64,000 nt of DNA from Thioalkalivibrio sp. ALJ21 (lineage in GTDB: Bacteria; Pseudomonadota; Gammaproteobacteria; Ectothiorhodospirales; Ectothiorhodospiraceae): the NCBI RefSeq assembly GCF_000378605.1, contig NZ_KB905156.1, forward strand, positions 911,209 to 975,208, in the 5' to 3' direction. Within the stretch, counting starts at the first letter, position 1. Each line of letters starts with the position of its first letter. A program made the position numbers and the translations under genes. The notes beneath the pieces are model-generated. The model worked only from the letters and a program-made list of their open reading frames with translations, was not told the DNA's origin and did not search any database. Positions 35,172 through 42,397 of this stretch are shown here, one piece after another.

Positions 35172-37406
35172 ATGTCCACGTCCAAGCCCAGCGATACGAC
35201 GCCGGAGAACCCGCCCGAGGATGCGGACAACGCCCTGACTGAAGGGGTCGTGGCGGCACCCCCATCACGGCCGCGCATGGCCATGCCGGCCGCGGGTGCC
35301 AGTCGCGCGTCGATGCGCACCACCCAGGATCGCGCAGAGCCGCACTACTTTACCGAGCGCGACCTCGACCGGATCCTCGAGAATCTCGATCACCTGCGCA
35401 GCACGGTCTTCCCGCGGCTGACCAAGGGGGGCGCCGCCGATGAACACAAGCAGCAGTGCTTCCCGTCGGTGTGCCTGATCGGCGTCGGGCGCTGCGGCTC
35501 CAACGTGGCTCTCGATGTAGCCGCGCTGGTCCACAGCGCGCGTTCGGAATACATGCGCGAGCTGGATAACGAGGAAAATGGTGGCCGCGAGAAGGAGATG
35601 CGGCCGCTGCGCTGGATTCGCAAGAGCCTGAACCTGCCGCCGTCCAATGCCGTGAAGCCGGTGTTTTTGATCGAGCCGATGGTGATGCTGGGCGACCTCG
35701 ACAAGGACATCGAGGGGCGCATCCGCTTCTCCAGTCGTGCCGGGCAGGACAACTTCATCGACAACTACAACAAGATGAAGATCATGGATCTGTCCGAGGT
35801 GCATGCCGGCGGGGCCGGTAACGCGCCCATCCTGGGCCAGTACCTTGCGCGCATCATCCTGAACAAGGACACCGACCAGTTCTCCAACGAAGACTGGAAG
35901 TTCATCCACTCCTATCTGATCGACTCCTGCGGCATCAAGGCCAACCAGTCGCGGCTGTACTTCTACATCTTCAGCGCGGGCGGGGGTACGGGCTCCGGCA
36001 TGGCCTCGGAATTCGGGCTGGCGCAGCAGTACTCCTACATGCGCAAGACCTTCGACCCGAAGCTGGAAAAGCGCGACAAGGCCAACCGCGACCACTCGTT
36101 CGTGTTCGAGCCGATCTTTGCCGCCGGAATCTGCATCCTGCCGAACATCCAGGACAACAGGGTGGAGATGTCCGAGGCGCTGCACATCAATGCCGGGCGC
36201 CTGCTGTGCAAGTATCTCGCGGAGGAATGGGACTTCTCCTACAACTTCGAGGCCGAGGAGACGCGCGACGAGGACATGATGCACCGCATACGTCCCTGGA
36301 ACGCGATGATGCTGATCTCCAACGACATCATGCGCTACGCGGAGGAGACCGACGACGGCAATATCCGCAATGTCGACGTCAACGCCATGGAGAAGTACGC
36401 CAACCAGTACATCTCTCAGCAGATCTTCAACATCCTGACCGCGCAGGCGGTCACCACTGACTACGACGAAGATTATTTCCGCCGCGCGGGGGTCGACATC
36501 GGCGAGACGATCCGCCTGGATGCGAATGACCTGTTCATGAGCCTGGCGGGGCCGGTGGCCGTGGCCTACGCGGAGTCCGAGGTGGCGACCGGTGAGCAGG
36601 CCCCGGTCGGGCAGGGTTCGCTGGATATCGATGACCTGTTTTACCGGTCCATCGATCTGCCGCATTTCAACAAGCAGACCGAGGCGATCGAGGGCATTAG
36701 CCTGCTGCCGATCGATGCCCCGCGCTACCGCGAGGCCTTGAAGAAGTACAAGGAGTCGAGCATGGACGCGGTCCATCTGCGCGACCTGCACTTCTTCAAG
36801 AACTGCTCGTCCATCGTCACGATCCTGTCGCTGCCGAAGGACTACAAGCTGTCCTACATGGACCTGAACCGGCTGAAGACGCACCTGAACGGGCTGTTCC
36901 CGAACACCACGCTCAAGCGCTATGCCCTGGTCATCGGGGCCTCGGCCAACCTGTCGCTGACTACCCTGGTGGTGAAGAGCCCCTGCCTGTCGGACGACTT
37001 CCTGACCCTGTTCGTGGCCTACATCAAGCGCTGCTTCGCCAATGACAAGACCCGCTTCGACGACACACTCGACCATGCGGTCCTGGACCTGATTCGGGCC
37101 GAGGAATTCGACGAGCAGCGCGTGGACGAGATGCTCAACGAGTTCGAGAACCCGACGCGCATCCTCGATACCAACTGGTATGCGATCAAGCCGATGTACG
37201 AGAAGAAATATCGCGAGATGTGCAGCGACGAGCAGAGCTTCGTCTCGATCAACGACATCCGGCTGAGTCGCGAGAACGTCAAGCAGGCGATTCGCTACCT
37301 GCGCGAGATCTACCGCCACCGCACCAGCAAGACGCAGATCATCAGCCTCAACGATGGCAAGACCGGTACCACCGCGACCAAGCGCCGGACCAGCAGCAAG
37401 AAGTAG
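35172..37406 (+). CDS. FtsZ-like / tubulin-superfamily GTPase (Tubulin_2 / FtsZl type)
   Basis: The 744-residue protein keeps the FtsZ/tubulin nucleotide-binding elements in order. These are a glycine-rich first loop IGVGRCGSN (103-111), the G-box AGGGTGSGM (269-277), an ND pair at 384-385 at the start of the H7-like region, and a T7-loop-like LDANDL (449-454) with catalytic-type aspartates. It is far longer than FtsZ (about 390) and has an acidic, disordered N-terminus (1-55) and a basic Lys/Arg/Ser tail. It fits the FtsZ-like families proposed from comparative genomics to remodel membranes. GGAG lies seven bases before the ATG. It appears to be transcribed alone. Confidence 0.8.
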   Translation: MSTSKPSDTTPENPPEDADNALTEGVVAAPPSRPRMAMPAAGASRASMRTTQDRAEPHYFTERDLDRILENLDHLRSTVFPRLTKGGAADEHKQQCFPSVCLIGVGRCGSNVALDVAALVHSARSEYMRELDNEENGGREKEMRPLRWIRKSLNLPPSNAVKPVFLIEPMVMLGDLDKDIEGRIRFSSRAGQDNFIDNYNKMKIMDLSEVHAGGAGNAPILGQYLARIILNKDTDQFSNEDWKFIHSYLIDSCGIKANQSRLYFYIFSAGGGTGSGMASEFGLAQQYSYMRKTFDPKLEKRDKANRDHSFVFEPIFAAGICILPNIQDNRVEMSEALHINAGRLLCKYLAEEWDFSYNFEAEETRDEDMMHRIRPWNAMMLISNDIMRYAEETDDGNIRNVDVNAMEKYANQYISQQIFNILTAQAVTTDYDEDYFRRAGVDIGETIRLDANDLFMSLAGPVAVAYAESEVATGEQAPVGQGSLDIDDLFYRSIDLPHFNKQTEAIEGISLLPIDAPRYREALKKYKESSMDAVHLRDLHFFKNCSSIVTILSLPKDYKLSYMDLNRLKTHLNGLFPNTTLKRYALVIGASANLSLTTLVVKSPCLSDDFLTLFVAYIKRCFANDKTRFDDTLDHAVLDLIRAEEFDEQRVDEMLNEFENPTRILDTNWYAIKPMYEKKYREMCSDEQSFVSINDIRLSRENVKQAIRYLREIYRHRTSKTQIISLNDGKTGTTATKRRTSSKK

Positions 37407-40415: not shown

Positions 40416-40441
40416 GGAATAGCGCTGCGTTGGGTAGCGTC
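40416..40441 (+). promoter_or_regulatory. Candidate ECF-type promoter before the sigma factor gene
   Basis: GGAAT at 40416-40420 and CGTC at 40438-40441 are 17 bases apart, matching the GGAA(C/T)-N16-17-CGTC pattern of many ECF sigma promoters. They lie 62 bases before the sigma-factor ATG. This would make the operon self-activating, as is common for ECF systems. Confidence 0.4.
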
Positions 40442-40502
40442 CTACAAGGTACAAGAACAAGCAAGGCCGCACGTACGGCCCTGCGGATGGAGGAAATACA
40501 AC

Positions 40503-41063
40503 ATGGCGACCTGGTTCGCACAGAGGCGGCTGCGTCAGAAGGTCTGTGACCTTCGACCGCAGATGTACCGCATGGCCTTTGCCTGGTGTCACGACGCCGC
40601 CCTGGCCGATGACCTGGTGCAGGAAGCGATGATGAAGGCCCTGACCCGGCTGAAATCGCTGCAGGACGAGAGCGCCCTGAAGGCCTGGGTGTTCCGCATC
40701 ATGACCAACTGCTACCGGGACTGGGGGCGGCGGCAGAAGGATACGGTGGACGTGGACAGCATGGAGCTGCCCTGCGAGGACTGTCCGGAGATGCAGACCG
40801 AACGCAACCGGATGGTGTCGGATGTCCACCGCGCGATGGCGCAGTTGAGCGCGGATCACCGGCAGGTGGTGTCGCTCGTGGACCTGGAGGGGTTCGCATA
40901 CTCGGAGGTCTCGGAGGTGCTGGATGTGCCGATCGGGACCGTAATGAGCCGTCTGAGCCGGGCTCGGGCGCAACTGAAAAAGGTGCTGTTGGAACAGCAG
41001 GCCGACCAGGGGCAAGCGGCCGGTGGACCCCATCTTCAGGTAGTGAGGAATCGGCATGGCTGA
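40503..41063 (+). CDS. ECF (sigma-70 family, RpoE-like) sigma factor
   Basis: This is a 186-residue extracytoplasmic-function sigma factor. Region sigma-2 spans about 13-77 (DDLVQEAMMKAL and AWVFRIMTNCYRDW), and sigma-4 about 105-160 with helix-turn-helix AYSEVSEVLDVPIGTVMSRLSRAR. GGAGGAA lies before the ATG. The stop overlaps the anti-sigma gene by eight bases, so they are translationally coupled. Its regulon cannot be read from the window, except for a possible autoregulatory promoter at 40416. Confidence 0.93.
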   Translation: MATWFAQRRLRQKVCDLRPQMYRMAFAWCHDAALADDLVQEAMMKALTRLKSLQDESALKAWVFRIMTNCYRDWGRRQKDTVDVDSMELPCEDCPEMQTERNRMVSDVHRAMAQLSADHRQVVSLVDLEGFAYSEVSEVLDVPIGTVMSRLSRARAQLKKVLLEQQADQGQAAGGPHLQVVRNRHG

Positions 41064-41868
41064 ACACCGTCTCAATGCGCAGGATCGCCCCAGCGAGGAG
41101 ATTCTCAATGCGTTCGTCGATGGCGAATTTTCGCCCGAGGATCGTCTCAACACGCTGAAGCTGATCTCCTCCAGCGAACGCCTGAGCCGCGAGGTCTGCG
41201 ACATGCACCAGCTCAAGGAGCTGGTGGGTATGGCCTATCAGGACCTGCCAACGGCCCAGTCTGGTGCCGGGCACTGCCGGATCACCCGATCCTCACGCAC
41301 CCACTGGTTCCCGTCGATGGCGGCCGGGGTCGTGGCGCTGGTGCTGGGGTCCCTGGCAGGTTACGAGATTACGCGCGATGCCGGATTTCTCGCGAGCGGC
41401 GAACCGACTGCATGGATCGGTGGTGATGCCGGCGAGACGGCGCTGATTGCCGGTGGTGATCAGGCCAGCGGTTCCGCGCCGCAGGTCGTCGCGGCAAGCG
41501 AGACCGACCAGATCCTGCTGCATATCAACGAGGCCGACCCGAAATCCATGGCCGAGCTGCTGGACGACATCGAGGCGATGTACCGCGACGCGGCGGCCGA
41601 TGGTCGCGAGTTGAACGTGCAGGTCGTGGTGCACAACAACGCGATGGACTTCCTGCGCACGGACCGGGCCCCGTATCCCGAGCGTGTCGCGGCGCTTAGC
41701 CAGGAATATGCAAGTCTGAGGTTCACGGCCTGCGCGCAGACCCTTGATCGTCTGGCGCGCGAGGAGGGCGGCACGGTGGACATCCTCCCGCAGGCCGAAC
41801 GGATCGATTCCGGCGTGGCCGAGGCCGCACGCCGCCAGGCCGAAGGCTGGATCTACATCAAGGTATGA
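41056..41868 (+). CDS. Anti-sigma factor fused to an extracytoplasmic DsrE-like domain
   Basis: The N-terminus (about 10-60) resembles anti-sigma factors: ILNAFVDGEFSPEDR and a VCDMHQLKE helix. A transmembrane helix at about 86-103 follows. The C-terminal part (about 150-270), which would lie outside the cytosol, looks like a DsrE/DsrF-like domain with VQVVVHNNAM, a conserved-looking Cys at 226 (FTACAQTL), and the ending GWIYIKV. I know of no standard anti-sigma with this sensor domain. The arrangement predicts that sulfur, thiol or redox state at the outside controls release of the sigma factor. Confidence 0.75.
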   Translation: MAEHRLNAQDRPSEEILNAFVDGEFSPEDRLNTLKLISSSERLSREVCDMHQLKELVGMAYQDLPTAQSGAGHCRITRSSRTHWFPSMAAGVVALVLGSLAGYEITRDAGFLASGEPTAWIGGDAGETALIAGGDQASGSAPQVVAASETDQILLHINEADPKSMAELLDDIEAMYRDAAADGRELNVQVVVHNNAMDFLRTDRAPYPERVAALSQEYASLRFTACAQTLDRLAREEGGTVDILPQAERIDSGVAEAARRQAEGWIYIKV

Positions 41869-41908
41869 ACCTGGATACCACGGGTAGACCCGAGGCCCTG
41901 GCCCGGCG

Positions 41909-42397
41909 ATGAAGCCATTCTCGTTTCCCGCGCGCCCCGGCTGGTTCCTGGCCGGGGCGCTTTTCGTCCTGTCGCTGGGGGGCACCTGGGCCCTGTTCTC
42001 GTTCGAGCGAGACGGCGGCGAGGTCGCCGAGGCCGACGACACGCTGCAGGTGGTGTACCACATCAATGCCGATGACCCGGCGCTGCACCTCAACGCCCTG
42101 CGCAACCTGCAGAATCATATCGACGGGAGTGGCGTGGATCGCCTGGAGATCAAGGTCGTGATGCACGGTGGCGGGGTCAGTCTGCTGCAGCACGCCAAGG
42201 GTGACCCTGACCTTCGCAGTACCGTGGATACCCTGAAGATGCAGGACGTGCGGTTCCTGGTCTGTGGCAACACCCTGGACAAGCGGGGGATCGAGCTGGA
42301 CGATCTGCATGATGCCCAGCCCGAGGACCGCGTGCCCTCGGGTATCGGCGAACTGACCCGGCTGCAGCGCGCGGGCTACACCTATATCAAGCCGTAA
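41909..42397 (+). CDS. Membrane-anchored DsrE-like protein
   Basis: The 162-residue protein has an N-terminal hydrophobic helix (about 10-31), probably an uncleaved anchor or signal. A DsrE/DsrF-like domain follows, paralogous to the C-terminus of the preceding anti-sigma protein. Matching motifs are [10 protein letters not shown] against [18 protein letters not shown] with Cys 119 against FTACAQTL, and GYTYIKP against GWIYIKV. It is 40 bases downstream in the same operon. It may be a ligand carrier or partner for the sensor. It overlaps the end of murU on the other strand by 16 bases. Confidence 0.78.

Follow-up and report, generated by a model that had tools for sequence, protein, structure and literature searches.

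Thioalkalivibrio species are sulfur oxidisers of soda lakes. Here we describe an operon of Thioalkalivibrio sp. ALJ21 that lies within a 64,000-nucleotide stretch of contig NZ_KB905156.1 (positions 911,209 to 975,208 of the forward strand; hereafter the window) and that joins a sigma factor to domains of the DsrE fold. Three genes on the plus strand, at window positions 40503-42397, encode an extracytoplasmic function (ECF) sigma factor (186 aa; 40503..41063), an anti-sigma factor fused to a predicted periplasmic DsrE-fold domain (270 aa; 41056..41868), and a stand-alone, exported DsrE protein with a hydrophobic N-terminal segment (162 aa; 41909..42397). The fusion is assigned by gene order, structural model, fold and conservation; over this anti-sigma gene product the closest named records are from strain ALJ3 (92% identity) and T. 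thiocyanoxidans ARh2 (93% identity).

The sigma and fusion genes overlap by 8 bases, and 40 bases separate the fusion from the third gene. An initial annotation of the window had proposed that the three genes are coupled and had suggested a survey of their order in sulfur oxidisers. The gene calls agree with this proposal, and across 30 loci of the genus and family the sigma gene lies 5' of the fusion in all 30 and the third gene follows the fusion in 24, so the arrangement is more than chance; two of the six loci that lack the third gene (L012 and L030) are at contig ends. The sigma factor itself is typical of the ECF group, having sigma-70 regions 2 and 4 and no further regions, with matches above cut-off to Pfam Sigma70_r2 (49.3 bits) and Sigma70_r4_2 (53.9 bits) and to the NCBIfam model TIGR02937, sigma70-ECF (96.9 bits). 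Its best NCBIfam score, 111 bits, is to the SigH_actino model and falls far below the cut-off of 251.6.

Both operon DsrE domains share a fold and a conserved cysteine

Sequence comparison and predicted structures agree that both domains have the DsrE fold. In the fusion the domain comprises residues 150-270 (41503..41865, plus strand) and is modelled with a predicted local distance difference test score (pLDDT) of about 94. Foldseek matches this model to MTH1491 (PDB 1l1s) with an expectation value (E) of 1.3e-9 and a target template modelling (TM) score of 0.86, and to chain A of DsrEFH (2hy5_A) with E 1e-4. The same relationship is found by sequence, since phmmer aligns the fusion with MTH1491 at E 9.1e-9 and a profile built from 19 fusions finds 1l1s at E 4.6e-20 and ST0148 (2pd2) at E 3.3e-11. 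For the third protein the fold matches are to 1l1s (Z 17.9), E. coli YchN (13.3), DsrEFH chain B (12.4) and TusBCD (11.9). A Pfam profile search, one of the checks that the initial annotation had suggested, separates the two: the third protein scores 47.9 bits against DsrE, above the cut-off of 22.7, but the fusion reaches only 12.1 bits and is tied to 1l1s by sequence and fold instead. NCBIfam offered no usable family for either protein. We considered whether the DsrE match might be a coincidence of short motifs, and this is ruled out by the fold, the profile and the conservation of the cysteine.

The two domains are homologous to one another (28% identity over 124 residues). Of the three shared motifs that had been proposed, both proteins match F-x-x-C-x-x-T-L and Y-I-K exactly; HIN-xADP describes the fusion (HINEADP) but not, strictly, the third protein (HINADDP). 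The proposed sensing cysteine of the fusion, Cys226 (codon 41731..41733, plus strand), aligns with the cysteine of MTH1491 and ST0148. All 82 distinct fusions have it, as they have Gly264 and Trp265, and 80 of them keep His156 (codon 41521..41523, plus strand); these sequences are distinct over their last 200 residues yet related, forming 43 clusters at 60% identity. In the stand-alone protein the cysteine is Cys119 (codon 42263..42265, plus strand), present in 110 of 112 distinct relatives and replaced by serine in the other two. This conserved residue presumably corresponds to the active cysteine of A. vinosum DsrE, and Cys226 to the sulfur-binding cysteine of DsrEFH.

The third protein had been described as membrane-anchored. 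A hydrophobic N-terminal segment is indeed present, as it is in 109 of the 112 stand-alone relatives, 106 of which also have an A-x-A-like site by a crude pattern. However, several orthologues from the genus and family start like plain signal peptides, and the protein is therefore more likely to be exported and perhaps cleaved than anchored, the window copy itself being ambiguous.

The DsrE domain of the anti-sigma factor is predicted to lie outside the inner membrane

The N-terminal part of the fusion is modelled as helices at residues 14-22, 27-39 and 41-61. We predict that these form the cytosolic, sigma-binding part of the protein (residues 14-61; 41095..41238, plus strand), in which L/A/D at positions 17, 19 and 22 are conserved. 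They are followed by a transmembrane helix at residues 90-108 (41323..41379, plus strand), identified from the model, from hydrophobicity and from the bias in lysine and arginine (K/R), and by a linker to the DsrE domain that is modelled at low confidence. The hydrophobic window has a mean of at least 1.6 in 76 of the 82 distinct fusions (the lowest value being 1.34), and an excess of K/R on the N-terminal side of the helix is found in 79 of the 82. Because the sigma-binding helices must be cytosolic, there is a single membrane helix and the K/R bias is so widely kept, the DsrE domain is predicted to lie outside the inner membrane. A cytosolic DsrE domain was rejected on the same K/R bias, and the topology prediction agrees with the earlier proposal of one membrane helix with a DsrE-like domain on its far side. 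Of the two outcomes that the initial annotation had named as counting against it, a lack of a DsrE-fold match for either domain and a cytosolic location, neither was obtained: both domains match the fold, and the fusion domain is predicted to be outside.

A gene directly after that of the sigma factor, a helical N-terminus and one membrane helix together make up the layout of a class I anti-sigma factor. The window protein has no Pfam match to any described anti-sigma domain, and distant relatives of the fusion give weak matches below cut-off, to RseA_N (E 0.012) and to zf-HC2 (E 0.02 and 0.12). Structure matches by Foldseek and with the 19-fusion profile included no anti-sigma helices and no DsrE-fusion structure, an absence that proves nothing.

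The sigma-fusion pair is widespread among gammaproteobacterial sulfur oxidisers

Among 58 genomes of the genus, family and class, 40 match the fusion at E 1e-3, a count that includes matches to the DsrE part only. In a class-wide draw of 369 gammaproteobacterial genomes, full-length fusions (profile matches from position 13 or earlier to position 244 or later) occur in at least 66, with at least 87 copies among the matches listed. A phylum-wide draw of 398 genomes yielded full-length fusions (E 1e-6) only in the ALJ21 genome itself and in two others (G602 and G653), all of the same class, and the remaining matches cover the DsrE or the anti-sigma part alone. Seven loci of the phylum draw (L215-L221) encode DsrE proteins that match the fusion profile from before the DsrE domain and that are possibly membrane-anchored; no sigma gene lies within their 1.5 kb flanks.

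We assembled 32 loci with a full-length fusion, 30 from the class draw (including the ALJ21 genome and one congener) and two from the phylum draw. The sigma gene adjoins the fusion in 32 of 32, and a stand-alone DsrE-like gene lies within the 1.5 kb flanks in 23. Two loci (L244 5560-8946 and L245 6081-9523) each carry two tandem sigma-fusion pairs, flanked by different stand-alone DsrE genes.

The initial annotation had guessed at a link to sulfur metabolism. In agreement with this, soxB is present in 65 of the 66 fusion genomes among the matches listed and in 85 of the 303 others of the class draw, with Fisher's P of 5e-29 in a test that treats the 66 genomes (40 family labels) as independent and ignores descent. 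Here soxB was called with TIGR04486 at E below 1e-100, which gave 150 genomes (148 by the tool's own cut-off). The 66 fusion genomes span 40 family labels, or 39 without G091, the fusion genome that lacks soxB.

A predicted promoter motif connects the operon to soxYZ and secreted DsrE genes

Upstream of the sigma gene we identified a candidate ECF-type promoter at 40416..40444 (plus strand), comprising GGAATA (40416-40421), 16 bases, and CGTCCTA (40438-40444), which ends 58 bases before the gene. In orthologous loci a GGAATA-N16-CGTC(C/T) block stands out 5' of the sigma gene from surrounding sequence that varies, and we predict that the operon is autoregulated. Open reading frame starts were estimated in this comparison and in the scans of DsrE neighbours, of soxY and of the 32 loci described below.

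The ALJ21 genome contains exactly five sites of the form GGAATAN15-17CGTCYNA, and none of the reversed motif. Besides the operon's own (C2:951624; window 40416-40444), two of these (C1:83489 and C1:84243) each precede a DsrE gene with a signal-peptide-like start and a Pfam DsrE match above cut-off, one (C2:508162) stands 82 bases upstream of the ATG of soxY in a soxYZ pair whose products score above the NCBIfam cut-offs, and the fifth (C2:94125) lies before an RF02278-like RNA considered below. A looser pattern gave 20 sites in this genome against 2 for its control, and over 37 genomes the control for the strict pattern gave three matches, in two genomes. Of the 12 PF02635 matches in the ALJ21 genome, 11 exceed the cut-off; further DsrE-like genes, at G000:C1 1117720-1118548 and 435133, have no strict ECF site nearby.

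A site lies within the 300 bases before the sigma gene in 27 of the 32 fusion loci, compared with a mean of 0.05 and a maximum of 2 for about 200 permuted motifs. DsrE genes on the opposite strand have a site within 300 bases in 8 of 11 cases (permuted motifs, 0). Secreted DsrE genes in tandem were scanned too: of 24 such genes, spread over 12 loci, 21 carry a site. The other 18 loci of that scan have no site directly before a DsrE gene, and several of their DsrE genes lie behind the sigma and fusion genes. An outer-membrane protein gene, recognised by W-x-x-L-Q/R-G soon after the signal peptide, repeatedly adjoins a secreted DsrE-like gene or faces the sigma operon (L232, L233, L234, L236, L243, L244, L245, L247, L251, L032 and L042); its product matched Porin_O_P above cut-off in two of four cases tested. 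This gene is likely to be a further member of the regulon.

The motif also recurs before soxYZ, which lends the proposed sulfur link further support. We found soxY in 22 of 24 genomes of the genus, and every one of the 22 orthologous loci (L252-L273) has a GGAATA...CGTC site, placed about 90-115 bases 5' of the estimated start within flanks that vary. In three distant genomes the sigma-fusion pair lies beside the sox genes themselves. In two of them (G191 and G301) the sigma and fusion genes run directly, on one strand, into soxX, soxY, soxZ, soxA and soxB, with a secreted DsrE-like gene and an outer-membrane protein gene on the divergent side; SoxX, SoxY and SoxA of G301 were checked by NCBIfam, SoxZ and the G191 genes were assigned by resemblance, and SoxB was taken from TIGR04486. 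In the third (G202) some 2 kb separates the pair from a sox operon (SoxX, Y, Z, A and B all above NCBIfam cut-offs) that has a motif starting 37 bases before the soxX reading frame and a secreted DsrE-like gene at its end; nearby genes encode a Sulf_transp sulfur transporter and a Porin_O_P protein. Since G191 and G301 share a family label, these genomes represent at most two independent cases.

A small RNA-like element and a further gene of the window

The site found at C2:94125 has counterparts, at the corresponding position, in six further genomes out of the 24 from the genus. In all seven loci an RNA-like stretch separates it from genes for a histidine kinase/NtrC-type pair; in ALJ21 this putative element occupies G000:C2 ~93,912-94,152 (L065 1288-1528) on the minus strand, and the other six are in L123, L127, L130, L131, L139 and L149. 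The idea that the site drives the histidine kinase/NtrC-type pair alone is ruled out by this intervening stretch and its strong terminator, found in 7 of 7 loci. The stretch contains the invariant sequence GACTCCTCCATCCTCCTTTGGTGG, a terminator and eight T residues. It resembles the toxic small RNA of Betaproteobacteria, RF02278, in having a CTCCTCC stretch and a terminator, but its scores of 31.5-35.1 bits, part of which derives from the terminator, are below the gathering score of 50 in all seven loci. An invariant TTGACA also lies inside the stretch, and because this may be a second promoter, the putative small RNA need not depend on the sigma factor described here.

Within the window itself (35172-37406), a 744-aa protein contains a GGGTGSG stretch, which presumably resembles the tubulin/FtsZ signature; the only Pfam match was to DUF6562, below cut-off.

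Discussion

We consider it on balance probable that the operon is a transmembrane sigma/anti-sigma switch that reads periplasmic sulfur, with sulfane sulfur as the most likely input at Cys226, and that it controls soxYZ and secreted DsrE genes. According to this model, the ECF sigma factor would in the resting state be kept at the membrane by the helical N-terminal part of its anti-sigma factor. The periplasmic DsrE domain would then receive a sulfur signal at Cys226, most likely as sulfane sulfur (a persulfide). The donor could be polysulfide, sulfur-loaded SoxYZ or the secreted DsrE proteins; these last would serve as carriers or partners and, having a common fold, could pair with the sensor domain. 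The sigma factor would be released and would transcribe from GGAATA-N15/16-CGTC promoters, the pairing of this sigma factor with this motif being itself a prediction. Its outputs would comprise the operon itself, soxYZ, which encodes the thiosulfate carrier of the periplasm, secreted DsrE genes and, for some members of Thioalkalivibrio, a small RNA. We regard sulfane sulfur at Cys226 as the likeliest input because the related DsrEFH binds sulfur on a conserved DsrE cysteine, according to a study of arsenite responses (PMC6620896), and because the predicted targets include soxYZ. A more specific version can be put forward tentatively, in which the anti-sigma factor measures the loading of the cell's own extracytoplasmic sulfur carriers: sulfane sulfur from the Sox system would be passed by SoxYZ or secreted DsrE to Cys226 and would set the expression of soxYZ, carrier DsrE proteins and the CUCCUCC-type small RNA, a design that may be common in gammaproteobacterial sulfur oxidisers.

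Several observations pull in the other direction. The release step, whether by proteolysis or allostery, leaves no trace in the sequence. Serine takes the place of the cysteine in the product of the third gene in T. halophilus HL17 and in strain ALJ24. In distant members Pfam DsrE is silent or below cut-off in 6 of 6 fusions (L031, L033, L037, L042, L233 and L244) and in 4 of 4 stand-alone proteins (two in L234, one each in L233 and L236), so that their DsrE assignment depends on custom profiles and alignment. Among the matches listed, 85 soxB genomes have no fusion and one genome (G091) has a fusion without soxB. The arsenite study also reports that in T. jannaschii ALM2 the soxYZXXAB genes were stable or slightly down under arsenite (PMC6620896). 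Within the genus, two second copies of soxY lack the motif, as do the four loci scanned (one of them with a short upstream region) among six soxY loci of other genera, of which one more lay at the end of its contig and another escaped recognition by the script. Finally, in distant genomes the motif lies 5' of soxY in 5 of 30 loci from fusion genomes and in 1 of 30 from soxB genomes without the fusion (Fisher 0.19; opposite strand, 1 versus 0). The 30 loci came from 28 fusion genomes and the other 30 from 29 soxB genomes, some with short flanks; the sample was drawn in handle order, 30 from the 65 fusion genomes and 30 from the 85 other soxB genomes, with family f1 excluded and a genome with a split fusion (G126) replaced by G176, and two and one genomes, respectively, yielded no soxY. 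Because the motif is this infrequent before soxY outside the genus, the regulon of the sigma factor seems to differ between lineages, its commonest members being the sigma operon and the secreted DsrE genes, and outside the genus control of sox is supported by motif positions for some genomes only.

The main rival to sulfane sulfur sensing is a thiol-stress sensor. On this view the periplasmic cysteine would be the target of oxidants, of disulfide stress or of metalloids that bind thiols, arsenite for example, and the genes under its control would mend or substitute for the thiol carriers of the periplasm. It takes this place because, in the same study, arsenite raised soxYZXXAB in T. thiocyanoxidans ARh2 and moved several DsrE/F-like genes up or down (PMC6620896). 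A single invariant cysteine accompanied by a near-invariant histidine would suit such a role, and the best NCBIfam score of the sigma factor is to SigH_actino, though at 111 of the 251.6 bits required. However, the sites point to a sulfur-oxidation carrier and to DsrE proteins as targets, with no thioredoxin or protease gene behind the five sites of the ALJ21 genome, and the fusion is almost wholly confined to soxB genomes (65 of 66 among the matches listed). In ALM2, moreover, sox did not rise under arsenite (PMC6620896). We regard thiol stress as a rather unlikely primary signal.

It is formally conceivable that sulfur chemistry plays no part at all and that a secreted DsrE protein docks onto the anti-sigma DsrE domain in the manner of RseB, so that loading, shortage or misfolding of the partner is read. 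The homology of the two DsrE domains would allow such pairing, secreted DsrE genes are both the commonest neighbours (23 of 32 loci) and targets with sites of their own, and the cysteine of the partner can be lost. That Cys226 is never lost in 82 fusions is not something that a pure docking role requires, and 9 of the 32 fusion loci have no stand-alone DsrE neighbour in their 1.5 kb flanks, which together make docking without chemistry improbable. Least probable by far is an ordinary ECF stress system whose sulfur link reflects the shared ancestry of sulfur-oxidising lineages, since this reading, which draws on a soxB association that ignores descent and on a sox motif signal that is weak outside the genus, fits poorly with the presence of the motif upstream of every one of the 22 orthologous soxY genes of the genus despite variable flanks, with sigma-fusion pairs beside sox in three distant genomes of two family labels, and with fusions spread (among the matches listed) over 40 family labels, 39 of which have soxB genomes.

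The sulfane sulfur switch that we favour has partial parallels among known systems. In S. meliloti the ECF26 sigma factors RpoE1 and RpoE4, with their anti-sigma factors, mediate a response to sulfite, RpoE4 controlling the sulfite dehydrogenase gene sorT (PMC3511301). They resemble the present system as autoregulated ECF sigma/anti-sigma pairs in a response to sulfur compounds (autoregulation being predicted here), but a DsrE sensor domain does not feature in the parts of that report that deal with them, they act on sulfite oxidation instead of soxYZ, and the inferred signal is sulfite generated inside the cell. RseA, the membrane anti-sigma factor of RpoE, likewise has a periplasmic part that can bind a periplasmic partner, RseB, from the same operon (PMC8103513); here the periplasmic part has a DsrE fold and the partner gene encodes a DsrE protein rather than RseB. 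MTH1491 and ST0148 (1l1s, 2pd2) share with the operon proteins the fold, the C-x-N-(T/S) motif with the same cysteine and the GW-Y end, but they are single DsrE domains of about 110 residues, whereas the domains here are exported or fused past a membrane helix to an anti-sigma factor.

SoxR and sHdrR of Hyphomicrobium denitrificans are ArsR-type DNA-binding repressors that act inside the cell, in contrast to the membrane-spanning sigma/anti-sigma relay proposed here, and the Pfam matches of the three operon proteins include no ArsR winged-helix domain. The likeness lies in an input of sulfane sulfur and an output of thiosulfate oxidation (PMC10451225, PMC12423496). Downstream of soxY, T. sulfidiphilus has a sigma-54 regulator and a histidine kinase, for which the relevant part of PMC6382920 shows no link to an ECF factor. 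Our search of the literature on DsrE with anti-sigma factors, ECF factors, sox or Thioalkalivibrio found no account of the unit, as judged from titles and the opening lines of abstracts, and two hits that looked accidental proved unrelated; the published ECF classification may already include a group for it. The initial annotation had suggested that an extracytoplasmic DsrE domain serving as a sigma-factor input would be a new sensing design, and the fold and topology predictions, with the lack of a literature account, are in keeping with that view.

The unit is real and widespread, and it sets a putative sensor of a new design on a chassis that is already familiar. Little is known of the means by which sulfur oxidisers detect thiosulfate or polysulfide in the periplasm, where Sox works, and a sigma/anti-sigma pair that carries a sulfur-carrier fold outside the membrane and has soxYZ among its predicted targets offers a concrete sensor. 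Such a system would account for some of the many DsrE-like genes that have no assigned function, could explain shifts of DsrE/F-like and sox genes in transcriptomes, and may provide a genetic part for the detection of periplasmic sulfur compounds.

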